Positions 2,678-56,316 of a stretch of 64,000 nt of DNA are shown here, piece after piece. Source of the stretch: Rugalucina vietnamica (Eukaryota; Mollusca; Bivalvia; Lucinida; Lucinidae); the NCBI GenBank assembly GCA_964017185.1, contig OZ024874.1:16239957-16303956 (forward strand), read 5' to 3'. The notes under the pieces are model-generated. The model was not told where the DNA came from. It was given only the letters and a program-made list of their open reading frames with translations, and did no database searches. Both the position numbers and the translations under genes were made by a program. Each line of letters opens with the position of its first letter. Position 1 is the stretch's first letter.

Positions 2678-5600
2678 ATGGAGCCAAAGGCAAAGAAAGT
2701 GAAAACAGATCCAGGCCCCATAAAGGGTCAAAAGATGATGACTTCTTTCTTCAAAGCTGTCAATTCAGGTAACAGCACTGAATTCTTAAATTGAAATAGG
2801 TGGTTGAGCTTACAATGAGCTGAGAATTTATTCAGCCTGCTCCTACCTAATACCCCACCCACAACTTGTACATGGGTTACTAAGCATGGCCTGTACCAAC
2901 TTTTTCCCTCAACTTGAACAAAAACTTTACAGTGTTTGATACCACCATGAAATGAGACCGAGTCTTAGAAAATCTGTTTTGAACTAACCCGAGTCTTCTC
3001 TGGCTGCAAACCCATAAAGGGTCTGTTATAATAGCCGCCAGTCAAAAATAATCGAAGGCTATTTAATGTCAGAGAAGTCTCGGATTAGTTTTGAATCATT
3101 TTTGCTTCATGGATATAGTTCAATGCCATTTCAAGCCCTTTATGTTATTATGGCATAAGTTTGTCAGACCAACTGAGCCTCAAGTCGTCCTGCCCCACTT
3201 CCACGACTGTCTAGTTGCACTAACTGATTTATTTTCTGGCCGTTGGGCCATCAATTTTTAAGTATTTTTTGTTGCTGCTCTATTGACCTGTTGAAAATAT
3301 TTGATATTTTATTTGATCTCAAAATTTAGATTGTGGGTACACATTAGAGCAGCCTTACTGAGGCTATCCTTAATCTTTTTAGAGCAAATATAAGAAAAAA
3401 AATCATCAGTCATCACATCAGGAAAAATGTCTGTGTAATGTATACCCCCTTTAACCCCACTAACTTGGGTATGCACCTTATACCTATTTTTCTTATTTTT
3501 GCTCCAAAATATAGTTTGCGGGTACTCATTAGAAACGCCTTGATGAGGCAGTTCTAACGTGTACCCAAAATCTATATTTTGAGCAAAAATAAGAAAAATA
3601 TCAACAATTTTCTGATGAAATTTACAACTCTACAATAATCTGTGTATCACATGGGCGTGTTTTTGTAATGACTTGCTGGCTTCAAATGGCTCATATTTTT
3701 TGTATTAGGTCAGATCAGCAAGAATGATAATACAACAACATCTACTGATGACAGTACCGTCTCAACACAGACAGACAATCCTGCTAGTTTAGAAACATCT
3801 GTCGAGACCAGTGAAGTGAAAACATCTTTTCAAGGTTCCCAAGGTCAGTGAAAAATAAAATTCCATGACTTTTCCATGATAATTCCATGATCAGAGTTAA
3901 ATTTCCAGGACTATTCTATCTTTTTTTGTCATATAACTGCATAAAATTCTATTGCAAAAGTAATGTAAATAAAAATAAAACTGAATTTAAAAAAATCATA
4001 ACAAAATTCCTTGAATTTACCATGATATTTTTCATAATTTTTCAAATTCCATTACTTTTCCATGCATGGATTTTTTTCAGCCATTTTCCTTGTTTTCCAG
4101 GTTTTCCAGAGCCCGTGGGAACTCTGTCTTCCCCTCCAGAAAACTTCGGTCCATGGACTGCAGAGATGTGCCGGGAAATGATTTACGAATACTTTGATGA
4201 AGACATCGTGATTCATAATTGTTTCACATGCAATCAAAAAGACTGCACAGACATTTCTAAAACTGAAGAACTCAGAATACGCCCAAAAAAATTTCAACAC
4301 TCCTGGCTGAAGCGGGAGAATTGGTGGCTCTGTTATGTGGAGGGTGAGGGGATGTATTGTGTTATTTGTAGAAAGCACCAAATGAAACATCCACAGAACC
4401 AAGCTGAAACATTTGCCTCTTCTCCTAGTGTAAGGTTTAAGGTGGATGCATTAAAGACACATAGCAGCAGTGAAATCCATGCTGATGCTCAGAGAACTGA
4501 ATTACTCCAAAAAACATCCTGTTTCCACCAAGAGTATACCAAGAAAGAAGAAGTTAGAGACTCTGTTCTAGAACAGGCATTCTCCACTGCCTACTTTCTG
4601 ATGAAGTCTTTTATTGCCAATAGGCAATTTGTTCCATTACTTGATTTTATTGAGAAAGTATTTAATGTTGATTCTCTTAAATTTTTTGACCATAAATCAT
4701 CAGGGAGTCAAAAAGAAATTTTTGAGATACTTGGTCAGACTGTAAAAACTGAACTGTTAAGGAAAGTGAAGACTGCAGCAGCCTTTGGTGTCCTAACTGA
4801 TGAAGTTGCTGATATTTCAGTTACCGAAAACCTTGTTACTTTCATCCAGTTTTATGACTTTGGTACAAAACAGGTTGCAACACATTTTTTATCATGCCAG
4901 AATGTTCTTTCAGAATTTGAACATGCCAATGCAGAGGCCATAGCCACTCTTCTCTTGAAGGAGCTAGAAGAAAATGATGGGCTTAATTTAGAACGGCTCA
5001 CTGGTTTTACATCTGATGGGGCTTCAGTCATGGTAGGGAAAAAATCCGGTGTTGCTGCTAGGCTTAAACAAGTGAACCCTGCTCTGCTAAATGTGCACTG
5101 TATATGTCACAGGCTGGCCTTAGCTTGTACAGATTCAAATGAGTCTTTGAATTACATTAAGAATCTTGAGATCTGGCTTCGCCAGTTATGGCAGTATTTT
5201 GAGAACTCTCCTCAAAGAATGTCTGCATATTTGAAAATCCAAACTGAACTTAAGGTGATACGGCTTAACAGACAGACTGTTAAAAGAGTGGTGAAACGCC
5301 TGAAAAAAGCTTGCAGAACTAGATGGTTGAGCTTAGAAGCAGCAGTGAAAGCAGTAAAAGATGACTATGAAGCACTCCTTCAAACGCTTTCCAAGTTTGA
5401 AAAGCAAGATGCTACAGCATCAGGGCTGCTGAAGAAAATGAGGACTTTAAAATTTATTGGGGCTGTATATATATTGAACTCGGTTCTTCCAGCCATTGGG
5501 GAACTGTCCAGGCGGTTTCAGAAGGGGTCCTTCAGCTTTGCTGCAATCCTACCAACCATCAATATGACTAAGGACAGTCTTCAGACCATCTTGCAGGATG

Positions 5601-6526
5601 AAACACCCATACAAGAACTTCAACAAGACATAGACAGCCTCACAGACATGTGTGCAGATATACGTCTTAACCAGAGGGATGCTACAGAACTACAGTCACT
5701 GTTCCGTAATTACATTACAGCTTTGATCAACAACATTGAAAGGAGGTTTGAAGACAGTTCTCCTGTCCTGGCTGCTTTCAGCATATTTGATCCAAATGTA
5801 ATGCCTGAAACCACAGAAGAACTGAAAGTCTATGGAAACCAACAATTAGAAACCCTGAGCAACCACTACTTCAAGGATAATCAAGACAAGATAAACAGAC
5901 TTAAGGCCCAGTGGCATGGAATGAAATATTACATTCGAGATGTAATTAAACCCAAGTTGCCAGAGAAATTAGCAAAAACAACTCCAACAGAATGGCTACT
6001 ACTTCAATTGCTGAACCAGACTATGCTAAAGGATCTGTATCCAGACATCATGTACATTGTTGAGGTGGTTGTATCATTACCAGTCTCGAATGCGTGGCCT
6101 GAAAGAGGAGCAAGCACTCTTAAAGCCCTCAAAACTCGTCTCAGAAACAGACTTGGGACCCAGATGCTGGAGAGTCTCCTTCACATTAGTATAAATGCTC
6201 CTGAGCCTAGTTCAGAAGAAGGCCAGAACATTGTGAAGTTAGCGGTAAAGTCCTGGCTGCAGAAGAAGCCCAGAAGAAAGCTGCCAAAATATAAGTCTTC
6301 TGCAGCAGTTGAAAAGGAAGCTGCCACACCAGTCATCGTTTTGGAAGATGCAGGAGTTCAAACAGAACCAGTGGCTGTAGTGAATCAAGAGGTGTTCCAG
6401 ACTGCAGTAAGAGCTGCAGCAAAGACTTTGAACCTGGAAGGTTACAGTGATGAAGAAGGAAGAGATGAAGAGGATGAAGATGATGAAGATGATGACTATC
6501 TTTACAAAGATTTTGAAGCTGAATGA
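2678..6526 (+). CDS. hAT-transposase-derived ZNF862-like protein, three exons
   Basis: Exons 2678-2768, 3709-3843 and 4101-6526 have GT..AG introns and matching phases (each split codon encodes Gly), giving 883 aa. The start is the ATG at 2678 (MEPKAKKVKTDPG, nuclear-localisation-like). Exon 2 is Ser/Thr-rich. A BED/TTF-like zinc finger (YCVIC..H..H) lies near residue 160. The RNase-H-like hAT core follows: LTDEVADIS near 308, GFTSDGASVMVG near 376, NVHCICHRLAL near 406, CRTRWLS near 480, and the conserved WPERGAS block of the hAT dimerisation region near 741. The C-terminus is very acidic (860-876). This architecture is known from hAT transposases and from domesticated genes such as ZNF862. 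No frameshift or stop is seen. Whether it moves DNA or is domesticated cannot be told; TIRs were not found. Intron 2 holds an M1 MITE. Confidence 0.85.
3411..3672 (+). mobile_element. MITE family M1, copy 2 (intronic)
   Basis: Runs from atcacatcaggaaaaatgtc to catgggcgtgtttttgtaat, with the central fold-back gcgggtactcattagaa..ttctaacgtgtaccc. It lies just upstream of exon 2 of the hAT-like gene. Confidence 0.75.
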
Positions 6527-26303: not shown

Positions 26304-26383
26304 CTTTAGTTAGCATTTTTTTTGTAAAAAGCTTAAACTTGTTGATGATAAAATGCTATGATGACATCGATTTTCCTGACAAT

Positions 26384-26615
26384 TGATAAGCCGCAACTTA
26401 CCATAAAGTATATCTCCCAGGCTCCAGTTGTCTGTAGAGTCTCGAGGACGTCTGTTCAGTTGTAGAGCTAGGAATCGAATGGCCGTCTCTCAGGTTTTGC
26501 ACGTGGTCGTCACTCGGGAATCTCCGTCATTCGCCGGAAACATCCGATGTTGCTGTTGTGGCAATCTCCTCCTCAGAAGGCACTCCTTGTCAAGCACTCG
26601 TTCACGGGCCTGTCA
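26384..26615 (-). repeat. 3' LTR, 232 bp
   Basis: Begins TGACAGGCCC and ends CTTATCA in element sense (TG..CA). It reads as identical to 38479-38710 along its whole length. An E-box CACGTG lies in the middle; no TATA box is evident. Confidence 0.95.
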
Positions 26616-26626
26616 CTCTCCCCCTG
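26616..26626 (-). other. Polypurine tract
   Basis: In element sense CAGGGGGAGAG directly precedes the 3' LTR, as expected for the plus-strand DNA primer. Confidence 0.85.
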
Positions 26627-28395
26627 TCTAATTTTTTTAGAAATCACCATAGTATATAAGCTTACAAAATTTTAAAGGAATATGAAAGTTTGCATGGGTG
26701 CTTACATGTACCAGGTATACAGTTGAAAGTTGAGCATGCAATGGGAAATTAAGACTGAATTTAACAGAGATATGGAAATTTAGACTGACTTTAACAGAGA
26801 TATTCTGAAGCTTAACTTTGGTTGTTTGAAATAGCTGTATTAAGATGAATATATTTACAATCCCTTGAAAAGTGTGTGTTTCTTAACTTTGAAACAGTAA
26901 TGAGTTTCTTAACTTTGAAACAGTAATTGGTGTTTTTTTCCACCTTTACATAATGCCATAATATACAAACTATATACATACATGAGGGATGACTTGCTAC
27001 CTGAAATATACATTGGGTACATCTAGATAAGTTATGAGACATACAATTCCTAATTGTTTTTGATAGTTATACTAATTTTCCATATACTGATTTTACACAA
27101 TGCCCAGCCATTTCAAAAGTATGACATAACTATATGATGCACTTGTTGTATTCTTATAAAGTAATACTAAAAACCATCTGGCAATTACAGCATTTTGGAA
27201 CTAGTAATTCAAAATCTAGTTTTCATGAAATTTCAACATGTTCAATGGAAATGACTGATTTACCGGTATGTTAGATAACACATGTTATCTGATATTATTT
27301 AATTTTCAGGTAGCTTATTTGTCACTTTTATACAATACAAAATGAGGGTTACTTAACCCATATAATATAAATGGATATTGATATGAATATGAGGGTTACC
27401 TAACCCCTATAGTATAACATAGATATATAGATGTAAAACATAGCCACTTCATGTGTTGGTCCATATGCTATATAGATAAATATATATGTCTATCTAAGAC
27501 ACAACATAAAGCAACAAAAGATTAACAAAAACATAATGTATACATAACTAAAGAGAATAACACATGGTAGGATCTAGAGACTCGAGATCTGTCAGAGGAT
27601 CGGACCAGCTGCAACTAAACAAATTTGCTAGAATGAAGTAATTTAACTGAAATATGATGACAGCAAAACCAGATCAGAACCAAATCAGAACTAAATAAAA
27701 GGAGAAACAAAATCAAACTAAAGATAATGAATCTAGCTTGATACTACAACTGAATATAAGGAAAATGCTGTGCATTTTAAGGATCACTACAATGCATAAA
27801 CTTCACAGAGAAACCAAAGTCAAGCTCGTAGCTTGATCTATAGAAAAGTTTTACAAATTGACCATAACTGATCTATACTTTGGTATTTAGTTATTATACT
27901 ACAGTCTATGCATATTGGCAGTCATCCCTAAAATGACAAAACTAAATAAAATAATGTGCAGCTACAAGGGCAACTACTATGGTGAATGTGCAATGTATTA
28001 ACTTACGATTAGATGACTTCTAGATCTGTAATAATAAAAGAGAATGTATTAGTGCCAAGCAAACATGTAAATGAAATTATCAAAATACCAATTTCCCACA
28101 GACGGCAGTTTCAAAGAGCTAGCCATCTATAGAAAACATAACAGCAAATTCCCAAAGACGGCAGTTTCAAAGAGCTAGCCATCCAAGGAAAACACATGAA
28201 TTTAGAATAAAATCTTCACATTTGAAGTAGCAAACAGCTAAATTTTCCTACGTTTTAGAAAACAGCGCGCGCGTTGAAATATCCGGTTTAAAATAACAAA
28301 TTGGGGTAAAATAATCATGAGATGAACATTGACATTTTGTGGTTTGCATGAACCAGATCAAGATGTAACAGTGGATAACCATTAATTATAGGAGA
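26627..28395 (-). other. Long 3' non-coding region of the retrotransposon
   Basis: AT-rich, without a credible ORF. Small duplications are present: cttaactttgaaacagtaat twice (26882, 26908), atgagggttac(t/c)taaccc twice (27343, 27390), and a 56-bp tandem duplication at 28090-28195 holding two copies of the 19-bp motif described upstream of the nuclease ORF. Confidence 0.7.
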
Positions 28396-29874
28396 CTACC
28401 AGGGCAAGTTATATAACCTGGCTGCATTCCTATTACAGACTCTCACTATGTCGGTTAGTGTCATACCAAAGTGTTGAGCAGTCTTTTGAGCAACATCCAA
28501 GACGTCCCAAGGATAATCAGCCAAATAAGAAGAGTCTGTTTCGAGCAACAGTCTTTTGGGACCATCCAAAGAGCTCAAGGCATTCATAGATTGTGGGTCA
28601 GCAACAGTAAGAGGGGAAACACTGAAGTAGCAGTTGGGCATATCAGTACACCACTGTTTGTACTCATCCTGCCCTCCGATAAAACAATGGCGGTGGATTG
28701 GATGGTCAAGCATATCCATATCCTTTAAGAGATCATAAACTTCCTTAGCCGCCAATGTTGAGGAATCCTGATCCCGAACATGCAACACCAACACTTTATT
28801 CAGCTGTTTTGCCAGTTGAAAAGCGAGCCGAAGGAATCGGAGTTGTCCCTGAACTTTCTGATCACGGCAGTATTCCTGGTTATAACAACCATGTCTACAC
28901 TTCGTGGTCAGGTCCAGGCCAACCTCCCCTATGCCAACAGCTTCTGGATATTTGTCAACTTGCCTTTTCAACTGACCAAAAAGCGATTCCACTTCAGTTT
29001 CCGTGATCATATGGGGGTGGACACCAAGAGTAAATCTTAGCCTTGGGTCAGCCCTCACCTGATCACGAAGAAGATTCCACCTGGAGGGAAACACATAGTT
29101 TGCTATGGCAAATGGGATACGAATGGGAATAGATTTCGAGTTCTCCAGATCCGACAATGACCGATTTTCACGGCCAAAGAACTTATCCAGGTGGAAATGG
29201 GAATCAATGATTCCCCTTTTCACCATTGGATACCATCCTAGGGGAATGGAACCATTACCCAAAGTGTACTGGGTGACAAATTTAAGCCGTGTCATTGCCT
29301 GAGAATTGAGATGGGGGATAAGTCGGATCATAATTGCCGGGTGAATCAGCGCAACGAGTCTAGTTGGGGGAATCGCCATATAATCACCCAGAGAAAGTGG
29401 TTCCAAACCGGCTCTTTGGTCGTATTCTCTCAGAAAGACATATTCTTCCTGAGAGAATCTTAAGTAAGGTGAGGTGAGCTCCGTGACGGCAGCACAGCCC
29501 AGCAGCTCCAAAGGAGATCCCAGGCCCATCTCCTGACTGATAAACAGGAATAGCCCATTTAACAGCAGGAACCAGGCCTGTAGAAGACTCTCCCCGGAGA
29601 ACAACTGATGCCGCCCATGCACATCCCGCAGCTCCCTCACATTACCCGCGGACATATGACAATCCACACATGAAGTGGCAGGGTTCAAATACCATGGTAA
29701 ATGGACCCTTAAAAGATGCTTATAGACATGGGGGGAGACGGCCCCACAAACTCCACACTTATTACGAAATGTCGACCTTCCTCTTTTAGCTTGCGAAGCC
29801 ATTCTACAATGAAAAAAAATAGATCTCATGCATCGCTTCATCACAGCCTTGGGGCCATCCCCCGACACATGCAT
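28396..29874 (-). CDS. Retrotransposon ORF3: zinc-finger-like N-terminus plus TatD-family metallonuclease
   Basis: 492 aa from the ATG at 29874, or 468 aa from the ATG at 29802, which follows a splice-acceptor-like tract (29804-29820). Cysteine/histidine clusters near residues 38-60 (CGVCGAVSPHVYKHLLRVH) and 68-85 (CVDC..H) look like zinc fingers. A Leu/Phe stretch (AWFLLLNGLFLFI) follows. The C-terminal ~270 residues carry the full set of TatD metal-ligand motifs: DSHFHLD near 225, GVHPH near 284, IGEVGLDL near 316, LHVRD near 364, HCFIGG near 394 and ETDSSYL near 444. TatD enzymes are metal-dependent DNases/3'-5' exonucleases with a TIM-barrel fold. The ORF occupies the env position, 1.4 kb after pol on the same strand, inside the LTRs. 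A role in cDNA trimming, DNA repair or host interaction is inference only. Confidence 0.9.
   Translation of the reverse strand: MHVSGDGPKAVMKRCMRSIFFHCRMASQAKRGRSTFRNKCGVCGAVSPHVYKHLLRVHLPWYLNPATSCVDCHMSAGNVRELRDVHGRHQLFSGESLLQAWFLLLNGLFLFISQEMGLGSPLELLGCAAVTELTSPYLRFSQEEYVFLREYDQRAGLEPLSLGDYMAIPPTRLVALIHPAIMIRLIPHLNSQAMTRLKFVTQYTLGNGSIPLGWYPMVKRGIIDSHFHLDKFFGRENRSLSDLENSKSIPIRIPFAIANYVFPSRWNLLRDQVRADPRLRFTLGVHPHMITETEVESLFGQLKRQVDKYPEAVGIGEVGLDLTTKCRHGCYNQEYCRDQKVQGQLRFLRLAFQLAKQLNKVLVLHVRDQDSSTLAAKEVYDLLKDMDMLDHPIHRHCFIGGQDEYKQWCTDMPNCYFSVSPLTVADPQSMNALSSLDGPKRLLLETDSSYLADYPWDVLDVAQKTAQHFGMTLTDIVRVCNRNAARLYNLPW
29804..29820 (-). promoter_or_regulatory. Possible splice acceptor before ORF3
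   Basis: In element sense a T-rich tract (attttttttcattgtag) ends immediately before AATGGCTTCG, whose ATG is in frame with the nuclease domain. A strong donor-like ATG/GTAAGT lies in the 5' LTR (38496/38497). Splicing between them would make ORF3 the first ORF of a subgenomic mRNA. Confidence 0.4.
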
Positions 29875-29898
29875 ATAGTCATCCTATAAAATTTATGT

Positions 29899-30254: not shown

Positions 30255-31260
30255 GCAGTTTCAATGAGCTAGCGTGAATCATCACCGAGACAGATGCCAC
30301 TTTCATGCATGTGTCAAATGCAGCCCATGTAGCTCGATCTGGCATAAATTCTGCAGTTACAAAGGACTAGCGGAAATAGATATCAGACCGAGCCACAATC
30401 ACTGAAATGATGAAGCAACACATGAAGTCATGAGAATGTAAATGAAATCTTGGCAGCAGGACGACTGGTGAAAACCCTTGCGTAGTAGTCACCCATACTG
30501 GTGCCAAAAATAAGCTTATGAAAATAAATCTGACAGCACCATCAGCAGCCGTCCCGCAGCTTCAAAGGACTAGCATGACGACCACAGATGATGATGTCAC
30601 TGATGAGACATGACGTTCACAAAAACACAAAGCAAGTCGTGACACCGACCCGAACAATCGCTATGCAGTGACAAAGAGCTGGCATTAACGACTGCACACA
30701 CCGACGTCACTGGTTTAACGTCAGCACGCTAACACAGAACACAAGCTATGACATCACAGCCCGCAATCACCTTGCAGTTTCAAAGAGCTAGCATTGGCGA
30801 CGGCAGGCGTTGACGTCACTAATACGACGACATTGACGTTGACGCCACTAATACGACGACATTGACGTTGACGCCACTAATACGACGACATTGACGTTGA
30901 CGCCACTAATACGACGACATTGACGGCACAATAACGCAGAGTAACGTGACATAATGCAAAACACTAGGACGTCACCACCGGCAATCACAGTGCAGTTTCA
31001 AAGAGCTGGCATTGGCGAAAGCAAGCGATGACGTCACTAATACGACGGCATATACGACACAATAACATGTGGACATTTACGGCACAATAAAATAAATAAC
31101 ATGACGCCACCATACACCACTGTTATGCAGTTTCAAGGAGCTAGCACAGGCAATAGCATACGCTGACGTCAAATAACATAAAGCATAATTTATGACGTCA
31201 CCGTGCACGACAGAGATGCAGTTTCAAAGAGCTGGCAAATTCAACAGTGAACGAGGACGT
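30255..31260 (-). repeat. Array of a 19-bp motif and TGACGTCA sites between pol and ORF3
   Basis: The motif GCAGTTTCAAAGAGCTAGC (plus-strand reading) occurs with small changes at 30255, 30353, 30556, 30665, 30774, 30992, 31127 and 31218, and twice beyond ORF3 at 28105 and 28161. Spacing in the array is 91-135 bp or about twice that. Most units also carry gcaatcac just before the motif and a CRE-like (T)GACGTCA after it (30702, 30811, 30969, 31029, 31164, 31193, 31256). A 29-bp subrepeat (actaatacgacgacattgac..) is tandem 3.7 times at 30819-30926. No ORF. Could be a transcriptional enhancer, RNA packaging/export signal or structural array. Confidence 0.85.
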
Positions 31261-31293
31261 CACCTATTCTTCAAACTAAACTTGTTTATGTAT

Positions 31294-34200
31294 TCAGTCC
31301 CTAAATCTGGCAGGTTTTTTAATTTTTCTGCCAGTTCTCGTAGTCCGGGGTTCTGACGGGAGTTGAGTGTTAGCAATAAACTCCCCGTCAGATTCAGACT
31401 CCGAGTCATCCTGAGAAGCATCTGAGGGGTCTGAAATGTCCTCTACCAAGCTACTGTCCTCGGCGAGACCATCGTCACTAAACAACACTGGCAATGTCAT
31501 GTCAGGATCATCTCCCAGCATGTATGGAAGTGTTTGATCAGGATCAAACAAACCACCATCTGGGAAACCATCCTGACTGGACTCTTCGAGCTCAGAATCA
31601 AGATTCTCCTCTTCATCTATGGGCAGAGTGTTGAGTAAGAAATGACGTTTCCTTTGCAGCCATAGTGGAAAAGAAGAATCGTGGCATGGTTTAATACGGT
31701 CATGGTGTACAAATTGCACTTTACGTCTTCCCTGGAGTGCATAGACCGGTGGACGAGCTCTTATGATGAGGTATGGACCAATCCAGGGGGGTCTCATTTT
31801 GGAACTTATCCCTATCTGGGTAGCGGAGTCTCGTAAATAGACTACATCGCCTTCCTTAAAGGACCTTTCATATACCCTGAGATCGTAATCTCTCTTTTGG
31901 CGCAGCTGAGTTGAGCCAATCTTCTCTCTGGCCAAGGTATGGATCTTTGAGAGATTACTAGTAAGATTTGCGACCCAAGTTGACGGGTCCTGGGGAGACG
32001 GTCTTGGCAACCCAAGAATCAGATCGATCGGTTGAATAACCTCTCTCCCCAACATGAGCATATTGGCCGAAAAACCTGTTGATTTGTTTTTCATCGAGTG
32101 AAGGGCCATAGAAATAAGTGGAAGATGCTCGTCCCAGTCTTTTACACCTCGAGAGACGTATGCCCTAATCATTTGTAGTATGACGCGATTGAAAACTTCA
32201 ACCTGGCCATTGCTGGAAGGATGGTATGGTGTTGTTCTAGTTTGTGTTATTTCCAGAGCTTTGCAGAATGCCTTGAATAAATTACTCTGGAAATTCTTAC
32301 CCTGGTCGGTATGTATTTCAAGCGGACATCCAAAGGTTACAATGAAATGTTTCAGGAAAGCCTCGGCTGTTACCTCTGCATTCTGGGCTGGCAGCGGTGC
32401 CAGCTCCACCCACTTAGTGAATTGGTCCACCATGACCAGTATGTAGACCGAACCTGCTTTAGATTTTGGATTGATAGGGCCAAGGATATCCAAGTGAACT
32501 CGTTCCATTGGATATCCAGCGTGATACAACTCTTGAGCACTTCTGGGGGTTCGATTACCCTTTTTGTTTTGGTTACAATTTGAACATTGTTGTACATATA
32601 TGTAACTATCCTTGGACATACCATGCCAATAGAATCTCTGTTTCAGCCTATCCAATGTTTTCTTTTGACCTAAATGCCCAGAGCTTTTCGAGTCATGGCA
32701 AAAGTATAATACTCGAGGTCTGAGTTCTAAAGGAACAATTAAACATTCAGAGCGGTCAATCTGGTTTGTCCAAGAATAGTACAAGATACCATCTTGCAAC
32801 CTCAGGTGGTCCCTATTTAGCCAAAGGGCTCTTGTTTCCGGACCAGTAAGTTGCAGTTCGCGAGTGGTTGGCTCGTATGAGTGCTCAAGCCAGTTTATCA
32901 CGATTCCAATACTAGGATCTTCTGTTTGAGCCCTTCTGAGCTCTATGACAGACAAGCCTTCCATCCAATTAGAACTAGCCTGGGTATCTGACATGGTTTG
33001 CGTTTGGTTAGTAATTTCGACCCCTACACTGCGCACCGCCAGGGGAACAACATCATCAACATCGTCATTGAATCGAGCCCACTGCTTATGTGCCCGCGTA
33101 CAATAAGGACACCCCCCGCAGGGGAGATCCTGTAGTTTCTGACCAGCGCTATAGCAGTCGCATTGTTCTAAAGGGTCTTTTACACGACTTAGCGCGTCCG
33201 CGTTTGTGTGTTCTGCGCCTTTCCTGTGTATTAACTTGAAATTGTATTGGGACAGTTCCTCAAGGAATCGAGCTAACTGCCCCTCTAAATGCTTAAATCG
33301 GGTTAACCAAACTAGTGAATTGTGATCCGAGCGAATGAGAAAGAAACGTCCCAGCAAATAGTGCCGAAACTGGCGACAGAACTTGACTACAGCCAATAAT
33401 TCTTTACGCGTTGTACAGTAGTTTCTATGTTGTTTTAAGAGAACATGACTGGCGAAGCAGATGGGCTTTACTACACCGTTCTGAACCTGGGATAACGCAG
33501 CCCCTATTTGATTTCCACTTGCATCTGTATCTAAAATAAACAGGCCATCAGGTGAAGGATGAGCTAACATTGGGGCCGTTATAGCTAATTCTTTCAGTTT
33601 CTCAAAACAAGCCTGATGTTTCTTTTTCCAAGTGAATATGTCTGCTTTAATGAGGGCATACAGGTCAGCTGAGACCTGTGCAAAATCCTGAATATGGTTC
33701 CTATGGTAATTCATAAAACCCAAGAAAGACTGAAGTTCTTTCACATTGGTGGGGACAGGCCAACATTTGACAGTCTCAAGTTTGTCAGGAGAGATAGTCA
33801 CACCGTTTCCGCTTACCATTTTACCAAGAAATTCCACGTTTTGCTTGAAAAAATGGCATTTACGTGGTTTTAACTTCAAGTTATGTTCTCGGAACCGGAT
33901 GAAAACCTTCCTGAGTGCTGACAATGTACCATCAAAGTCAGTGCCAAGAACGATGATGTCGTCCAAATAAACAATTACTTCTTCCCAAGTTAGGCCCCGC
34001 ATGACCAATTGAATTGCCCTAGAAAATGTTGCAGGGGCCGTACAGAGACCCATTGGTAAACGGGTCCATTGAAAACTCCCGAACCGGGTATTGAAAGACG
34101 TTTTATGCCTACTACTAGCTTGGAGTGGAATCTGGTAGTACCCACTGCAAAGGTCGAGTACACAGAACATGCTTTTGCCATACAAAGAATCCAGGCAGTC

Positions 34201-35358
34201 TTCAATCAATGGAAGGCTATAGTTGTCCTTATATGTTTTGTTGTTTAGTGCCCGATAATCAATGCAATACCTGAGCTCCCCTGTTTTCTTTCTTACAAGA
34301 ACTGGTGCAGCCGACCATTCAGACATAGAGGGTTCAATAACACCTTGTTTCAGAAGCTTTTCCAAGTATTCTTGCTCTTGCTTTTGGAACTGGAGTGGAG
34401 TGCGCCTAAACTTTTCATTAATTGGAATTTCATCATAGGTTTGAATTTTATGTTCCACTCCAGAGTTTAAACATCCCAAATCAAAATCGTCCTTTGAAAA
34501 AACATCCGAAAATTCAATGATCAATTCCTTAAATTTAGATTTCTGATCATCCGAAAGTTCCGAAATATTCTCTAAATACATTTGTTGTAAATGGGAAGGA
34601 ATATCTTGATTGACCCTCTCTGTCTGTATGTCCTGTGCCTGATATGCATGGGCTTGCTCAGTTCCCAAGTGACTTTCAGGGGATCCCATGTCATCGGTTT
34701 CCTTAACACGGATTGCATTTTCGGCATGACCTATCATTTTACCTTTCTTGTAGGTCACAAAAAAGTCAGAGTCATTTATGACTTTCAAGGTCACATGTTG
34801 ACCTTCACCATAAATGCGTGATGAGAGGATATGCTTGGATGGGCAACTCTCGACAATGTAAGTGCCATCAATGGGTTGATCTAATTTAGCTTGTATATAG
34901 CTAACAGAATGTGGCTGTACTACAGTACGTCTTATAACGGTCACCTTGGAGAATTGATATCCGGGTGTCATGGTAACACTGACAGGTAATGTATCCTCCC
35001 CTATAGTCAAAGTTTCTTTGCCAAGGTCCAAAATGCTGGACGTGGCTTTCATAAAGTCCAGACCTAGCAAACAGGGATCTTTCACTGGAGCCACACATAC
35101 AGTATGCAGAAATGTTTGTGTCCCAACAGTAATTGGTACATTGTAGATAATGCGACCCTTGACAGGGTCTGCACCAATGCCTGTCAGAACACAAACCGGG
35201 CCTAATTGTTCTTGACTATATAATGGGGCTAGATAATCATCACGCACCAAAGTCACCATGGCAGCCGTATCAAGAATGGCGTTTGTTTCAATTCCGTTGA
35301 TCAAAGTTTTAATTGACGCAGTTAAATTTCTTTGGCTTGGCAGAGAAACCTCAAACAC
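31294..35358 (-). CDS. pol: Retrotransposon Pol: protease, reverse transcriptase, RNase H, integrase
   Basis: The frame is open from 35451 to the stop at 31294. The first in-frame initiator-like codon in the unique part (35358) is GTG, so expression by frameshift from gag is more likely than an independent start. Counting from 35358: protease with an unusual DTA active-site triplet (ILDTAAMV near 30) and LLGLDF flap region near 93; RT with YLDD near 463; RNase H with DTDASG near 609; integrase with an HHCC zinc domain (HDSKSSGH..CSNC, about 888-924) and a DDE core (HLDILGP near 956, HTDQGKNF near 1016, NGQVEVFNR near 1051); then a GPY/F-like module (WIGPYLI) and an acidic tail ending in a basic TRTGRKIKKPARFRD. 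No chromodomain recognised. No stop or frameshift. ORFs in other frames here are shadows. Confidence 0.95.
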   Translation of the reverse strand: MFEVSLPSQRNLTASIKTLINGIETNAILDTAAMVTLVRDDYLAPLYSQEQLGPVCVLTGIGADPVKGRIIYNVPITVGTQTFLHTVCVAPVKDPCLLGLDFMKATSSILDLGKETLTIGEDTLPVSVTMTPGYQFSKVTVIRRTVVQPHSVSYIQAKLDQPIDGTYIVESCPSKHILSSRIYGEGQHVTLKVINDSDFFVTYKKGKMIGHAENAIRVKETDDMGSPESHLGTEQAHAYQAQDIQTERVNQDIPSHLQQMYLENISELSDDQKSKFKELIIEFSDVFSKDDFDLGCLNSGVEHKIQTYDEIPINEKFRRTPLQFQKQEQEYLEKLLKQGVIEPSMSEWSAAPVLVRKKTGELRYCIDYRALNNKTYKDNYSLPLIEDCLDSLYGKSMFCVLDLCSGYYQIPLQASSRHKTSFNTRFGSFQWTRLPMGLCTAPATFSRAIQLVMRGLTWEEVIVYLDDIIVLGTDFDGTLSALRKVFIRFREHNLKLKPRKCHFFKQNVEFLGKMVSGNGVTISPDKLETVKCWPVPTNVKELQSFLGFMNYHRNHIQDFAQVSADLYALIKADIFTWKKKHQACFEKLKELAITAPMLAHPSPDGLFILDTDASGNQIGAALSQVQNGVVKPICFASHVLLKQHRNYCTTRKELLAVVKFCRQFRHYLLGRFFLIRSDHNSLVWLTRFKHLEGQLARFLEELSQYNFKLIHRKGAEHTNADALSRVKDPLEQCDCYSAGQKLQDLPCGGCPYCTRAHKQWARFNDDVDDVVPLAVRSVGVEITNQTQTMSDTQASSNWMEGLSVIELRRAQTEDPSIGIVINWLEHSYEPTTRELQLTGPETRALWLNRDHLRLQDGILYYSWTNQIDRSECLIVPLELRPRVLYFCHDSKSSGHLGQKKTLDRLKQRFYWHGMSKDSYIYVQQCSNCNQNKKGNRTPRSAQELYHAGYPMERVHLDILGPINPKSKAGSVYILVMVDQFTKWVELAPLPAQNAEVTAEAFLKHFIVTFGCPLEIHTDQGKNFQSNLFKAFCKALEITQTRTTPYHPSSNGQVEVFNRVILQMIRAYVSRGVKDWDEHLPLISMALHSMKNKSTGFSANMLMLGREVIQPIDLILGLPRPSPQDPSTWVANLTSNLSKIHTLAREKIGSTQLRQKRDYDLRVYERSFKEGDVVYLRDSATQIGISSKMRPPWIGPYLIIRARPPVYALQGRRKVQFVHHDRIKPCHDSSFPLWLQRKRHFLLNTLPIDEEENLDSELEESSQDGFPDGGLFDPDQTLPYMLGDDPDMTLPVLFSDDGLAEDSSLVEDISDPSDASQDDSESESDGEFIANTQLPSEPRTTRTGRKIKKPARFRD

Positions 35359-35383
35359 TTCACAATGACGACTCGGATCTGAT

Positions 35384-35430
35384 CGGACTAGGCATTGGTC
35401 GTCGACTGGCCTAGTCCGCTCAAGTTTAAA
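35384..35430 (-). promoter_or_regulatory. -1 programmed ribosomal frameshift signal
   Basis: In element sense the heptamer T-TTA-AAC (35424-35430) sits in the gag frame as required. After a 5-nt spacer (TTGAG) comes CGGACTAGGC (35409-35418), which pairs perfectly over 10 bp with GCCTAGTCCG (35384-35393) around a 15-nt loop. The gag stop (TAG, 35388-35390) is inside the 3' arm. Slipping back one base enters exactly the open pol frame. Confidence 0.88.
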
Positions 35431-38075
35431 TCTTGAACGGACTGTGAAGTCCTAACATATGCCTCAGGGCTTCGAGGTCTATCCGATTGTTGAGGCATAT
35501 TCGGACCACCTGAATAGGGTTGCCTATCCGGACTGCCCGAATATGTGGGTCTACTAGGTGACTGTCTACTAGGAAAACCTGGGTTTCTCTGTGGGGATCT
35601 GTTTTTATTGTACCTATCTCTATCAGGCCAAGGTGGTGGGTTATTCTGATAATCTCTATAAACCTGACTAGATTGTTGACTAGGCTGCCTTTGCTGAATT
35701 GGCGGGTATCCTTGAGTGGGGGGATAACCACGGCTATCATACTGTGGGGGGTATCCAGTATACTGTGCAGGGTAACCCTGAGATGCTGGATATCCCTGTA
35801 CTGGATATCTCTGGTAGTTATTTGGCGAATAGCCACGGTTTGAGTAATTATCATGCCTAGCGGGGCTGGTATAGTGTGGACCATTGCCACCACCAGGCGA
35901 TCCACCCCGATAACCGCCAGGTGATCTTTGTCTGGACCAACTTTGGCCCTGTGGTCCTGACGAATATCGCGATGGGGACCGTGATGGTGATCTATAGAAA
36001 GCAGGCAGTCCTTTTATGATTTTCATCATGTCGTCACATTTTCTTTTAATGCCTGCCACTCTATTTTCCTCTTCAACACTAAAAACCCTCTCTTGAAATG
36101 ATACCTTTCCGCCACCAATTGCCTTTTTGTTTGCAAGAATTGTTTTAATGCGCTTGCACGCTTCGTGAATAGTTGAGGGTGATTCATTCATTACCATCGT
36201 GGCTGCTTCTTTGTGCTTGCAGCCACGAAGGAATGCCTCAGTTGATACTTGCTGAATGAGAGCTGTCCGCTCACTTTTGTAACCGTCCAGTGTAATTGTC
36301 ATAATGCGTTGCAAATATGACTCGAGAGTTTCATCCTCCTCTTGTTTAGAGGAATGAAGGCGTTGCCTTGCTGCTATTGGCTCCTCTTTTAAGTCAAAAC
36401 GCAAGGCAAGCTCCTGTCTTAGTCCATCATAATTGTCTCTATTGTCTGACCTCGAGGCATATTCCAAAGCTTTGTCCGTCAAGCAGTCATATAGTCTGTC
36501 AAGTTTCTTGTCATCAGACCAACCCTTCCTTCTGGCTATCCTGTCAAATTTCATTATAAAGGATGACCAGGACAGACCAGAAGAAGGGTCCCCGGAATAC
36601 AGCTGAAGCCGTGGAGGCGGAGGCGAATTGCTCCGGCTGGAACTGTCAGAAGTTGACCGTCTAGACCGGTATCTCCTGTGTCTAGAACGGCCTCTATCTG
36701 AAACAGTCTGGCCAGCTGTGGTATCTCCTTGTCCGGTTTGTGAAGTTTGTCCCGTCAGTAATGTTGATTGTCCCGTTAGTGATGTTGGTTGTCCCGTCAG
36801 TAATGTTGATTGTCCCGTCAGTGATGTTGGTTGTCCCGTCAGTAATGTTGATTGTCCCGTCAGTGATGTTGGTTGTCCTGTCAGTAATGATGATTGTCCC
36901 GTAAGTGATGTTGGATGTGCAGTCAGTGATGTTGGTAGTCCGGTCAGAGATGTTGGTTGTTGTGTCAGAGGTACTGGTTGTATAGTGATTGATGTTGGTT
37001 GTCCTGTCATTGATGTTGGTTGTGCAGTGATTGATGTTGGTTGTGCAGTGACTGATGGTGGTTGTGCAGTGATTGATGTTGGTTGTCCTGTCATATTTTT
37101 CGAAATTTCCTGTGTAGCGACTGGGCTGATGGTGTTAGAAAAAATGGCCGACTTCGGAATCGCTGCCATTATGCTATCAATTAGCATCTGTTGAGGGTGT
37201 TTTGGTTTAACGTCCACTGTAGCAGCAGGAATGGGCTGAAATATAGCTGTAGTAGGTTGTGTTAAAACAGGTTTGGATGGTGGTGGAGTTGCCAACTGAC
37301 CAGATGGCTGGACAGGTGAGTTTTGGTTGTCAGTCTTTAAGGTTAAAGGATCTGGAGGGGTTGATAGTGATTTTTTGAAGATTGGCAATTTCTGGGTCAC
37401 TGGGACAGGTGGTTGTAACCATTTGCTTACATCTAACATGAAAGTGTCATGGACAGACATTTTTGATTTGAGCTCTGCCGTTGCTTTGTCCTGATGAGCT
37501 AATTGAGCTTGTAAATTGGTATTTACTGTTTGCATCTTCCCCATGGAATCTGTAATCATCATCATTTTTTGAGACAAGTTGTTACCTAATAGATGCAATT
37601 GATGGGACATGACGTCCACTTGTTGGGCCAACATTATCACAGATTCCTGGACAGGGTCAGGATTTTCTGGGTTTTCTTGGTGAAGATGTTGCTTCACCAT
37701 TGTTTGTGAGGTTTGTTCAGTCTGATCCATCTGTTCGGCCGTTTCATTATCATAAAAGTCATCTTGCTGTCCCGAGAGGATATTTGAGTCAGTCTGGGGT
37801 GCGGGAGAGAAAGGGTATTGTGTGTCAGATTCCTCCGATTTTTCTGAGCCGTCTGAAGTGGCATGAAATATGAGGGATAATTTACCATCATCAATCCATT
37901 GCTGCCAAACTTCAGCTTTGAGTCTTATAGCCGCCAAATGATTGACGGTTATTTGTGGTTGTTTACCGGCCAGAACTTCATTTCTCAGACTAATAATGTC
38001 TGCGGCATACTTGGGTCCAATGTTCTCAAGAGTTTGCAGGTCTGCCTGCGAACATGTATATATGTTAATTGACAT
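35388..38075 (-). CDS. gag: Retrotransposon Gag with N-terminal helix-hairpin-helix
   Basis: 895 aa from the ATG at 38075; the frame is open for 20 more codons upstream, but without ATG. Residues ~2-35 (INIYTCSQADLQTLENIGPK.., then AADIISLRNEV) match the helix-hairpin-helix pattern of ComEA-type DNA-binding proteins. A Gln-rich coiled region follows. About 330-450 is a degenerate 8-residue repeat (TGQPTSLT, TGQSTLLT). An Arg/Ser stretch (SRHRRYRSRRST) precedes the retrotransposon gag domain (~500-650, LSWSSFIMKFDRIARRKGW.. to HEACKRIKTIL). The last ~190 residues are Tyr/Gly/Pro/Gln-rich, like disordered prion-like segments, with no CCHC zinc knuckle. Gag forms the particle. RNA binding may rest on the RS and YG-rich parts. 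The antisense ORF at 36628-37194 is a shadow of the repeat. Confidence 0.92.
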   Translation of the reverse strand: MSINIYTCSQADLQTLENIGPKYAADIISLRNEVLAGKQPQITVNHLAAIRLKAEVWQQWIDDGKLSLIFHATSDGSEKSEESDTQYPFSPAPQTDSNILSGQQDDFYDNETAEQMDQTEQTSQTMVKQHLHQENPENPDPVQESVIMLAQQVDVMSHQLHLLGNNLSQKMMMITDSMGKMQTVNTNLQAQLAHQDKATAELKSKMSVHDTFMLDVSKWLQPPVPVTQKLPIFKKSLSTPPDPLTLKTDNQNSPVQPSGQLATPPPSKPVLTQPTTAIFQPIPAATVDVKPKHPQQMLIDSIMAAIPKSAIFSNTISPVATQEISKNMTGQPTSITAQPPSVTAQPTSITAQPTSMTGQPTSITIQPVPLTQQPTSLTGLPTSLTAHPTSLTGQSSLLTGQPTSLTGQSTLLTGQPTSLTGQSTLLTGQPTSLTGQSTLLTGQTSQTGQGDTTAGQTVSDRGRSRHRRYRSRRSTSDSSSRSNSPPPPRLQLYSGDPSSGLSWSSFIMKFDRIARRKGWSDDKKLDRLYDCLTDKALEYASRSDNRDNYDGLRQELALRFDLKEEPIAARQRLHSSKQEEDETLESYLQRIMTITLDGYKSERTALIQQVSTEAFLRGCKHKEAATMVMNESPSTIHEACKRIKTILANKKAIGGGKVSFQERVFSVEEENRVAGIKRKCDDMMKIIKGLPAFYRSPSRSPSRYSSGPQGQSWSRQRSPGGYRGGSPGGGNGPHYTSPARHDNYSNRGYSPNNYQRYPVQGYPASQGYPAQYTGYPPQYDSRGYPPTQGYPPIQQRQPSQQSSQVYRDYQNNPPPWPDRDRYNKNRSPQRNPGFPSRQSPSRPTYSGSPDRQPYSGGPNMPQQSDRPRSPEAYVRTSQSVQDLNLSGLGQSTTNA

Positions 38076-38458
38076 AGTGATATTGGCAATAATAAGCAAG
38101 TCACAATGAACATACACAAAAGTACAGGTGAGCAATACAGGAAAATATATGGGCCAAACAGGTGAGGGAAACAGGCTTAAATCAACAATTGGGCAAAAAA
38201 CAAGTCAAACAACATGTAATTTCAATATTTAATTCAAAAATAAGGTCACCCGTATGACTGAATATCACACGTTTGACAAAAGCTAATAACTTTCCTGTAA
38301 ATAAGAAAATAATGATAATACAAATAAGCGTTGCGTTTGGGGACTAGAAAATGACCTTGAATATGTTTAATAATTTAGAAATTACCTTTTAAGACGCTAA
38401 TTTGATGTTTTTAACACGAAAATCCCGCAATTTTGACAATCCGGAAATGAATTTTGCT

Positions 38459-38475
38459 TCCCATCCTCGTCGCCA
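38459..38475 (-). other. Primer binding site for tRNA-Ser(GCT)
   Basis: In element sense TGGCGACGAGGATGGGA lies 3 nt after the 5' LTR. It is complementary over 17 nt to the 3' end of animal tRNA-Ser(GCT) including CCA (from general knowledge of that tRNA). Confidence 0.85.
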
Positions 38476-38478
38476 CTT

Positions 38479-38710
38479 TGATAAGCCGCAACTTACCATA
38501 AAGTATATCTCCCAGGCTCCAGTTGTCTGTAGAGTCTCGAGGACGTCTGTTCAGTTGTAGAGCTAGGAATCGAATGGCCGTCTCTCAGGTTTTGCACGTG
38601 GTCGTCACTCGGGAATCTCCGTCATTCGCCGGAAACATCCGATGTTGCTGTTGTGGCAATCTCCTCCTCAGAAGGCACTCCTTGTCAAGCACTCGTTCAC
38701 GGGCCTGTCA
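38479..38710 (-). repeat. 5' LTR, 232 bp
   Basis: Identical by eye to the 3' LTR. In element sense it should hold promoter and start site. Near its 3' end is ATG/GTAAGT (38496/38497), a strong splice-donor consensus. The 76-aa ORF here is a chance reading of the LTR and flank. Confidence 0.95.
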
Positions 38711-38714
38711 CAAT

Positions 38715-54649: not shown

Positions 54650-55679
54650 AACATTTTGTCAAGTAAAGACATTCATTTAGAAAGCTGTAATAAAACATAT
54701 TAATCCAAGTTAGCATGAACTTTATTTTGAACTGATTTTTGTATAAAAAAAATCCAACCATGTGTCAGCGAGTTGAATGTCTAAACGTCTGTTGAGGACT
54801 CAGTAGAATTGTGGCCGATATTGACATTGGGGGTAATCAGACGGACCAGAATTTTAGACACACAATCAAACGGTGCATCGTGAGAGTATTTTTCACAGCT
54901 GTCAGAAACGTCAAAAATGTAAATGTGGCTTAAAAGTTGTCACAACCGCTTACCTGTGACTCGGATAATATAAGAACAAAGTAATTAACTTATAATGTAC
55001 CCGTAAAATTGGTTAGAGAGTGTTCATTGGTGAGGAATTGTCATTTTGGCACCAGTAGTTGGGTATCGTCACGGCGTGTAGAGTGAACATTTGACAGGTA
55101 ATTCTGAGAGGTTTTGCACTTATCAGTGCTTATTAGTGCTTATTTCTTTGTTTGTTTGAATTGTTGATTTATGTCACAGTCAACAGTTATGGCCATTTTG
55201 GGACATTAGTATGTCATGACATCCAGAATATGCTTTGAAATACAACCACCAAAGTAAACAACCAATGCTTATGTGTATGGTCCTATGGGTGGATGACTAA
55301 GCCACTTTTTCTGTTCAAGCTGAGAGTATCTTTGAAGCAGTTAACCGGTTAACCAGTATTATAAATCAGGTGGTCAATCAATCAGTTAAAGCTTTGCCTG
55401 GTGTAGTTCTGGCCAAGCTGTTGGAAATTTTAGCAGATCAACTGCATTGGAAATATAAGGCTTGTCCTCTATTCATAATATTTACAGGTCTCCTGTATAT
55501 GCCTTGAGGCACAAGCGGCCCATCTATTTCTCATTGTCCCAATGGGCGGGTACCCATGGTGGTTTTATTGGTCTTATGTTAATAAGGTATACTCACTGTT
55601 TTCTTTTTCTTTTTTTTTCTATCTAAAGGTTCATAATGTCTCATTGATATCATCTTTGACCCACTGATCTCTTTTTCAG
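54650..55679. other. Upstream region of the phosphatase gene
   Basis: Presumably holds the promoter and a 5' leader exon; a splice acceptor (ctctttttcag) ends at 55679. No start site can be placed. 55176-55230 has words like the SINE 3' end. Confidence 0.4.
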
Positions 55680-55692
55680 TCCAGTCATCAAG

Positions 55693-56316
55693 ATGAGGAA
55701 ATATGGTGCTCAGATAGCTCAAATCACACCAAACCTGTGGCTTTGTGGGGTAGCAAATATTAAGGAAGAGAATCTCAGAGACCTTGATATAACACATGTA
55801 CTGAACACAGCGGAAGAGTTGAGAGACTTCAAATATCCAGTCGTTGATGGCGTTGGCTTGTGCATTAAGCATATAACAATGAGGGACAGTGAAGATGAAG
55901 ATCTGTTGCACTACTTGGACACATGTGTTGATCATGTACATAGTGTTGTTGAATCAGGTGGAAACATTTTGGTTCATTGTGTAGCTGGAGTAAGCAGATC
56001 TGCCAGTGTTTGTATTGCATATCTTGTGAAGTATCAAAACACCTCTTTGAAAAAGGCTTATTTTCATGTCTTACACAGAAGATCATGTATTTTTCCAAAC
56101 TTTGGATTTTGGAGACAGTTGGTAATATATGAGGAAGCAGTAAGGGGCCGTAACTCTGTGGAAATGTTACCTTTTATCTTTGGCACAGTTCCTGATCCTT
56201 TCAGAGTGGATGCTGAGAATAGACTCAGATTTGCATGGATGAGAGAACTCATTCTTTACTGGACACTACATTTCATCATATTGCTGGTTCAGATAATGTT
56301 CATATTGTTTCAATAG
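55693..56316 (+). CDS. Atypical dual-specificity phosphatase (DUSP14/18/21-like) with C-terminal membrane segment
   Basis: One coding exon, 207 aa. The ATG at 55693 lies 13 nt after a good splice acceptor, so the 5' leader is probably spliced. The N-terminus IAQITPNLWLCG and the block GFWRQLVIYEEAVRGR (~136-151) are typical of the DUSP14/18/21 group. The active-site loop HCVAGVSRSAS (~95-105) has the C-x5-R signature intact; D65 in RDSEDED is the likely general acid. After the catalytic domain comes a group-typical FGTVPDPF, then LILYWTLHFIILLVQIMFIL (~186-205), a strongly hydrophobic stretch that could anchor the protein in a membrane. It would dephosphorylate Tyr/Ser/Thr residues in the cytoplasm. 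AATAAA at 56726 is a possible polyadenylation signal. Confidence 0.93.
   Translation: MRKYGAQIAQITPNLWLCGVANIKEENLRDLDITHVLNTAEELRDFKYPVVDGVGLCIKHITMRDSEDEDLLHYLDTCVDHVHSVVESGGNILVHCVAGVSRSASVCIAYLVKYQNTSLKKAYFHVLHRRSCIFPNFGFWRQLVIYEEAVRGRNSVEMLPFIFGTVPDPFRVDAENRLRFAWMRELILYWTLHFIILLVQIMFILFQ

Follow-up and report, generated by a model that had tools for sequence, protein, structure and literature searches.

A TatD-family gene carried after pol by a Ty3/gypsy-type retrotransposon lineage of the bivalve Rugalucina vietnamica

A complete-looking LTR retrotransposon and its third open reading frame

This study analyzed a 64-kb stretch of DNA from Rugalucina vietnamica, referred to in its full length as the window. 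One complete-looking LTR retrotransposon was identified on the minus strand, from 38710 to 26384 (Table 1). Gag, pol, and a third open reading frame (ORF3) are all encoded on this strand, and ORF3 lies between pol and the polypurine tract, as the first-pass annotation had described. The LTRs, which it had read as identical, match at 234 of 234 positions, a count that includes one chance base on each side of an LTR proper of 232 bp bounded by TG and CA. Paired TG...CA LTRs with a short target-site duplication are those of an LTR retrotransposon, and the order protease, RT, RNase H, and integrase in pol is that of Ty3/gypsy elements; RT, RNase H, H2C2, and rve exceeded their Pfam cut-offs, and two models of an aspartyl protease scored below the threshold. 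The element is young and, by its domain order and Pfam matches, of the Ty3/gypsy type. Pfam detected no CCHC zinc knuckle in gag, in which 21-bp tandem repeats (36705-37135) encode a seven-residue TSLTGQP-like repeat. The putative primer-binding site presumably corresponds to the 3' end of tRNA-Ser(GCT), and no tRNA genes were found in the 64-kb window.

The spacer between pol and ORF3 measures 1.4 kb and contains short repeats, and about 1.8 kb without any ORF of 100 codons separates ORF3 from the polypurine tract. A GCTAGCTCTTTGAAACTGCA-type motif is repeated on the coding strand at 30664-31263 and 28081-28192, flanking ORF3 on both sides. The core spacer motif TCTTTGAAACTGC was considered as a general feature of these elements and rejected, since the 21 loci scanned showed it only in the two families A and B; the spacers of families C, D, and E carry other repeats. 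Elsewhere in the window, an 885-codon ORF (3869-6526, plus strand) presumably resembles a hAT-type transposase or ZBED-like protein, and a 218-codon ORF (55660-56316, plus strand) with an HCxxGxxRS motif is one that we take to resemble a dual-specificity phosphatase.

Table 1. Features of the window element, with further loci and proteins discussed in the text
Feature	Position	Strand	Basis or remark
5' LTR, TG...CA, 232 bp	38479..38710	-	identity with 3' LTR; second match of LTR query
3' LTR	26384..26615	-	repeat comparison and LTR query
Target-site duplication ATTG, 5' side	38711..38714	-	reading of element ends
Target-site duplication ATTG, 3' side	26380..26383	-	reading of element ends
Putative primer-binding site TGGCGACGAGGATGGGA	38459..38475	-	TGG-starting sequence after 5' LTR
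Splice-donor-like site ATG/GTAAGT, near 5' LTR end	38491..38499	-	sequence; recurs across LTR families
gag ORF	35388..38204	-	sub-threshold Pfam matches to Retrotrans_gag and an HHH-like N-terminus; 7-aa repeats
pol ORF (protease, RT, RNase H, H2C2, integrase)	31294..35451	-	ORF list and Pfam
Part of pol-ORF3 spacer, five copies of TGCAGTTTCAAAGAGCTAGC-type repeat	30664..31263	.	repeat reading
Splice-acceptor-like site CTATTTTTTTTCATTGTAG, directly before ORF3 ATG	29804..29822	-	sequence
ORF3 (zinc finger CxxC...H...H-LPWY, middle region, TatD domain)	28396..29802	-	Pfam, alignment, copy comparison
Polypurine tract region, tract TTAGACAGGGGGAGAG, adjoins 3' LTR	26616..26640	-	
Non-coding-looking elements L109, L110, L111	C13:47414650-47422050; C3:67292500-67296500		
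Proteins holding ORF3 N-terminal and middle part, many with gag Pfam domains	P0255-P0288		

The frame of ORF3 (28396-29883, minus strand) is open over 495 codons. The start that had been placed at 29874 is less likely than the MASQ codon at 29802, from which the protein most likely runs to the stop at 28396, because other family copies are in different frames upstream of this codon, the database protein P0001 begins at MASQ, and the acceptor-like site immediately precedes it. Numbered from MASQ, residues 199-465 of 468 match the full TatD_DNase domain PF01026 (7.9e-35; 120.9 bits; cut-off 27). The only other Pfam matches of ORF3 were two sub-threshold amidohydrolase models, and a viral glycoprotein domain was not found.

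The TatD motifs named in the first-pass annotation are present, with HxH, E, H, H, and D aligned with active-site residues, and its N-terminal Cys/His cluster corresponds to a finger that is conserved across the family and followed by P (LPWY here). Among 54 aligned proteins, including that of the window, H202, H204, E293, H341, H372, and E421 are invariant and D423 is nearly so. The HxH assigns ORF3 to the Group II TatDs as PMC10085689 defines them. ORF3 shares with YcfH, TATDN3, and TATDN2 of this group the domain and the HxH, E, H, H, and E/D residues but differs from them in being encoded by a retrotransposon and in its added finger and middle module. Of 39 aligned ORFs from the same genome, 37 retain the full active-site signature HHEHHD; these 39 are the longest open frames of fetched copies, mostly intact, with decayed copies not represented. 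The exceptions are L124, with one change, and L118 (C12:8760900-8763500), an intact 743-aa ORF3 that reads CQEKHN and has lost four of the six residues, namely the HxH, the His of LHxR, and the Asp of ETD; this sequence indicates that catalysis is not always kept. Among the database matches listed, 109 of 120 relatives retain the signature, and five of the other 11 are gapped at some of the sites.

Linkage of ORF3 to pol and insertion as a unit

The ORF3 protein was searched against the genome of its own species (1.09 Gb, 47 contigs) and returned at least 91 rows (86 of 146 candidates scored), in several families, with identities to the window copy of 98-100%, 78%, 61%, 44-49%, 34%, and about 32%. 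An integrase search returned at least 86 rows (85 of 3252 candidates scored). Both counts are lower bounds, less similar integrases falling outside the sample. A PF01026 search returned 90 rows (all 101 candidates scored). Another 20 ORF3 copies were examined, each together with 4.4 kb of upstream DNA, and in 17 of them RT or integrase lies directly upstream on the same strand. The three exceptions are L092, which is rearranged; L104, which has neither within 4.4 kb, an integrase lying 11.3 kb upstream of ORF3; and L108 (C1:43014756-43020410), an internally deleted element with a 5' LTR, part of the integrase, and ORF3 but no RT match, whose LTRs are identical over 251 bp and whose target-site duplication is CTAT.

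The linkage was also counted from the side of pol by pairing the integrase rows with the PF01026 rows, to which six rows of the ORF3 search were added. In 38 of the 39 scored integrase rows at 60% identity or higher (36 loci), the same strand carries a TatD no more than 12 kb downstream, and in 36 of these 38 the distance is 1.0-2.9 kb. One close pol locus, C11:55302109, showed no TatD within 12 kb in this pairing of search rows. A hand estimate, which takes the 1.09-Gb genome to have under 100 TatD places, puts the chance of a TatD in the 12 kb downstream of a random site at about 1 in 2000. Below 60% identity, a TatD follows in 12 of 47 rows, ten of them at 1.55-1.87 kb; the other 35 lack it, 23 of these with open frames of approximately 1600-2000 codons, and TatD is thus a trait of some clades only.

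The LTR search revealed LTR pairs of family A around six ORF3 copies and of family E around seven. Both ends were read in 12 ORF3-bearing elements selected because their LTRs were paired, and 11 have perfect 4-bp target-site duplications; in two cases, the boundary was moved by one or two bases so that it fell on the TG that begins the LTR. In C17, the duplication matches at three of four bases if the LTR begins at TG. Homology between copies of one family ends abruptly at the LTR end, and the flanks differ. The first-pass annotation had named the pattern that would make ORF3 a chance insertion, namely element copies lacking ORF3 together with a duplication of its own, or introns of a host gene, around ORF3; close pol relatives carry ORF3 in nearly every row, and the duplications are those of the whole element. 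A chance insertion of ORF3 is ruled out by this linkage, by the duplications, and by codivergence with pol.

Elements of approximately 7 kb with LTRs 93-96% identical to those of the window were also identified by the LTR search, several pairs lying about 6.9 kb apart. Pieces from two of these elements (one in two pieces, the other as its 3' half) contained no gag, pol, or ORF3 match, and in the 3' pieces L109 and L110, the sole listed ORF of at least 100 codons has 112, ORFs that run off the piece being excluded from the listing. As candidates for intact family-A elements without ORF3, they were rejected: they share the family-A LTR, but the pieces read matched neither gag nor pol. Judged by these sequences, the elements of L109, L110, and L111 are likely non-coding, LARD-like passengers mobilised in trans. 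A 538-aa TatD ORF of another type, H, occurs at four dispersed places; the copies at L112 (C2:17608149) and L113 (C11:14782171) share 99.4% identity across a stretch of no less than 2.2 kb that begins about 0.53 kb upstream of the ORF, and no pol was found within 3-3.5 kb upstream in the two of the four that were examined.

Divergence, expression, and modular relatives of ORF3

The distances of pol and ORF3 were strongly correlated, with a Mantel r of 0.927 for 13 pairs (0 of 20000 permutations) and 0.830 for ten pairs (1 of 20000). The 13 pairs include four of database proteins, in which pol and ORF3 were paired by an inferred common contig; such coincidences numbered six compared with an average of 0.25 in a shifted control, which is an indirect argument for the pairing. 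Between the window copy and family B, dN/dS was 0.197 for ORF3 and 0.083 for pol, and against families C and D, it was 0.13-0.18 for ORF3, with dS near saturation. These ratios indicate purifying selection on ORF3 between families. Within ORF3, the TatD part (0.118) is the more constrained half compared with the N-terminal part (0.280). Young copies were compared in 14 pairs, 4 to 47 changes apart: in 12 of these (7 to 47 changes), dN/dS ranged from 0.22 to 1.77, and the other two had no synonymous change. Such ratios are those that fresh insertions would give and offer no evidence of current selection; because they are not low, selection is visible only between families. The family-A values (0.75-0.93) are probably inflated by the leader before MASQ, which is in other frames.

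The LTRs and the approach to ORF3 contain candidate splice sites. All four LTR families read (A, C, D, and E) have a GGTAAG donor at a distance of 19-23 bases from the LTR end, and a GGTAAG in the last 40 bp was obtained in 7 to 29 of 2000 shuffles per LTR. Before the ORF3 ATG, a pyrimidine-rich tract ends in CAG or TAG. The acceptor cut falls 1-11 nt before the ATG in families A, B, C, D, E, and E2 (pyrimidine fractions 0.69-0.81); a similar site was recognized by eye in family G, and H has one at the greater distance of 30 nt. Among background YAG sites of five loci, 76 of 1402 have a pyrimidine fraction of at least 0.75, a bar below which B and E fall. In a second pol clade, seven loci have an acceptor-like site 3-33 nt from the ATG (pyrimidine fractions 0.75-0.88), L118 among them having no clear start Met and L117 and L121 being near-copies. 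The recurring donor near the LTR end and the acceptor just before the ATG suggest that ORF3 is probably produced in the manner of env, from a spliced subgenomic mRNA.

The second, distant pol clade, whose integrase is 43-48% identical to that of the window, carries the same ORF of finger, helical part, and TatD domain. To it belong the ten elements with TatD at 1.55-1.87 kb, nine of which have ORF3 open frames of 500-829 codons. The finger C-x4-C...H...H-x-P is invariant in all 13 second-clade-type proteins aligned (five from this genome and eight from databases). Compared between the clades by hhalign, the finger and middle module matched with a probability of 99.0 (E 7.4e-18, 143 columns) and the TatD parts with an E of 3.3e-56. 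In the TatD tree that the first-pass annotation had called for, 34 ORF3-type TatDs (17 own and 17 database) fall together on one side of a branch with an SH-aLRT of 97; this was a quick tree without TATDN1 and TATDN2, with 12 prokaryotic rows, two bacterial PDB chains, and human TATDN3 on the other side. A single capture of TatD appears likely from these sequence comparisons. One second-clade pol (L114:2-1603) ends in a PHD finger (PF00628), possibly a chromatin-targeting part of the integrase.

A profile search with the second-clade ORF3 listed 48 proteins, 21 of which have gag-type domains (PF00098, PF12836, or PF14893). In two examples of approximately 1125 aa each, a gag with a zinc-knuckle-like motif is followed by the ORF3 N-terminal and middle part, 33-65% identical to ORF3 in the aligned pieces, and both proteins end where the TatD barrel would start. 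This arrangement suggests that the N-terminal module is able to function within Gag.

Proposed role, alternatives, and wider occurrence

ORF3 belongs to a Ty3/gypsy-type lineage as one of its regular and long-standing genes and is not accidental cargo, as supported by its position, its linkage to and codivergence with pol, purifying selection between families, and the intact active site. We consider it probable that it encodes a working nuclease used in the cycle of the element. ORF3 would be translated, as env is, from a subgenomic mRNA joining the donor near the 5' LTR end to the acceptor before the ATG, and a spliced mRNA would allow it to be made apart from Gag-Pol. The finger and middle module may bring the protein to the ribonucleoprotein or particle of the element, where the TatD barrel would act as a metal nuclease on the nucleic acids of the element's own replication. 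The substrate that we prefer, only tentatively, is the cDNA 3' end before integration, at which the enzyme would trim single-stranded 3' overhangs, remove deaminated 3' nucleotides, or cut abasic sites. As described in PMC4176340, E. coli TatD is a 3'-5' exonuclease on ssDNA and ssRNA that shortens 3' overhangs until about two nucleotides remain and takes off deaminated bases at the 3' end; TATDN1 and TATDN3 are reported to cut abasic sites in duplex DNA as AP endonucleases (PMC10085689). Ragged or deaminated cDNA ends would be fitting targets for such activities before integrase acts.

The main rival to a function at cDNA ends is an action on RNA, whereby ORF3 would clear RNA:DNA hybrids in the manner of TATDN2 or degrade host small RNAs against germ-line silencing. 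According to PMC12709183, human TATDN2 is an RNA 3' exonuclease and endonuclease that resolves R-loops, and primordial germ cells of medaka require tatdn2. E. coli TatD also digests ssRNA (PMC4176340), and the probable separate spliced expression and the finger module would fit a trans-acting factor. However, the element encodes its own RNase H, and we regard an RNA substrate as unlikely. It is distinctly improbable that ORF3 serves chiefly as an accessory protein for structure or RNA binding, in which the TatD fold is retained and catalysis is secondary: the dead active site in the intact ORF of L118 and the Gag-fused module without TatD would agree with this, but the six active-site residues are intact in most proteins of both sets examined, and the TatD part is the more constrained.

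In errantiviruses and retroviruses, env is a third ORF between integrase and the polypurine tract and is expressed from a spliced subgenomic mRNA. ORF3 resembles env in position and in its probable spliced mRNA and has a nuclease in place of the glycoprotein. An env-like job, be it spread between cells or an attack on host DNA, would fit these two features but is highly improbable given the Pfam matches of ORF3, and a nuclease that attacked the DNA of the host would deprive the element of that host. Captures of host genes do happen, but a host TATDN gene or retrocopy that landed by chance in this one element deserves virtually no credence, with none of the present data in its favor and several families and a second pol clade carrying ORF3 at the same place with codivergence.

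The nuclease proposed here has precedents among captured enzymes; ORF3 is an extra enzyme ORF between pol and the 3' LTR that is conserved among copies. The closest are the enzymatic ORF3s, DEDDy exonuclease and GDSL esterase, of the bdelloid rotifer LTR retrotransposons Vesta and Juno (PMC5408684), with which the window element shares an extra enzyme ORF after pol, intact catalytic residues, and a non-env ORF3. One bdelloid class is likewise a 3'-5' nuclease but belongs to the DEDDy family, not to TatD (PMC5408684). In that source, the bdelloid enzyme ORFs are mostly in recent branches and show no significant departure from neutrality, whereas one ORF3 is common to two pol clades here and is under purifying selection between families. 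Orchid Ty3/gypsy elements are reported to have recently acquired an m6A demethylase domain, a parallel in which enzyme and host differ (PMC9289625). The first-pass annotation knew of no described class of LTR element with TatD, and no description of TatD in an LTR retrotransposon was found in the open-licence PubMed Central literature; "TatD" did not occur in the papers on transposable elements that were text-searched. If the reading is correct, a DNA-repair-type nuclease joins the proteins that retroelements encode and keep under selection, and the families, the dead-enzyme copy, and the Gag-fused group form a natural set for asking what use a retroelement makes of a 3' nuclease.

The named relatives of ORF3 are for the most part proteins of bivalves (Saccostrea, Crassostrea, Mytilus, Pinctada, Dreissena, and Ruditapes), with one from the sea slug Elysia. 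Others are in metagenome-assembled genomes of Thiodiazotropha and Sedimenticola and are probably animal host DNA, because one Thiodiazotropha contig is inferred to be shared with a pol. Among viral contigs, none of 50 pattern stretches was a relative of ORF3. Prokaryote contigs yielded 174 relatives, the best 80 of 174 at 20-30% identity and all in bacterial or archaeal records. The proposal that such elements may explain multi-copy TATDN2-like invertebrate genes is partly supported: TATDN2- or TatD-named proteins of Saccostrea, Crassostrea, and Mytilus belong to the same family, and in the single protein of the Mytilus coruscus gene model P0071, an integrase H2C2 zinc-binding domain is joined to TatD. 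Expansions of "TATDN2-like" genes in molluscs may consist of transposon genes. It is possible, though rather doubtful in so full a form, that an ancient molluscan and perhaps wider gypsy lineage brings its own nuclease to the particle, with the finger and middle module targeting it and TatD finishing or repairing cDNA 3' ends, and that most multi-copy TATDN2 or TatD genes of molluscs are element genes. Two related pol proteins (P0154 and P0239) carry a macro domain (PF01661), possibly another enzyme capture, and P0064, of the same TatD family, is fused to a PF08719 domain.
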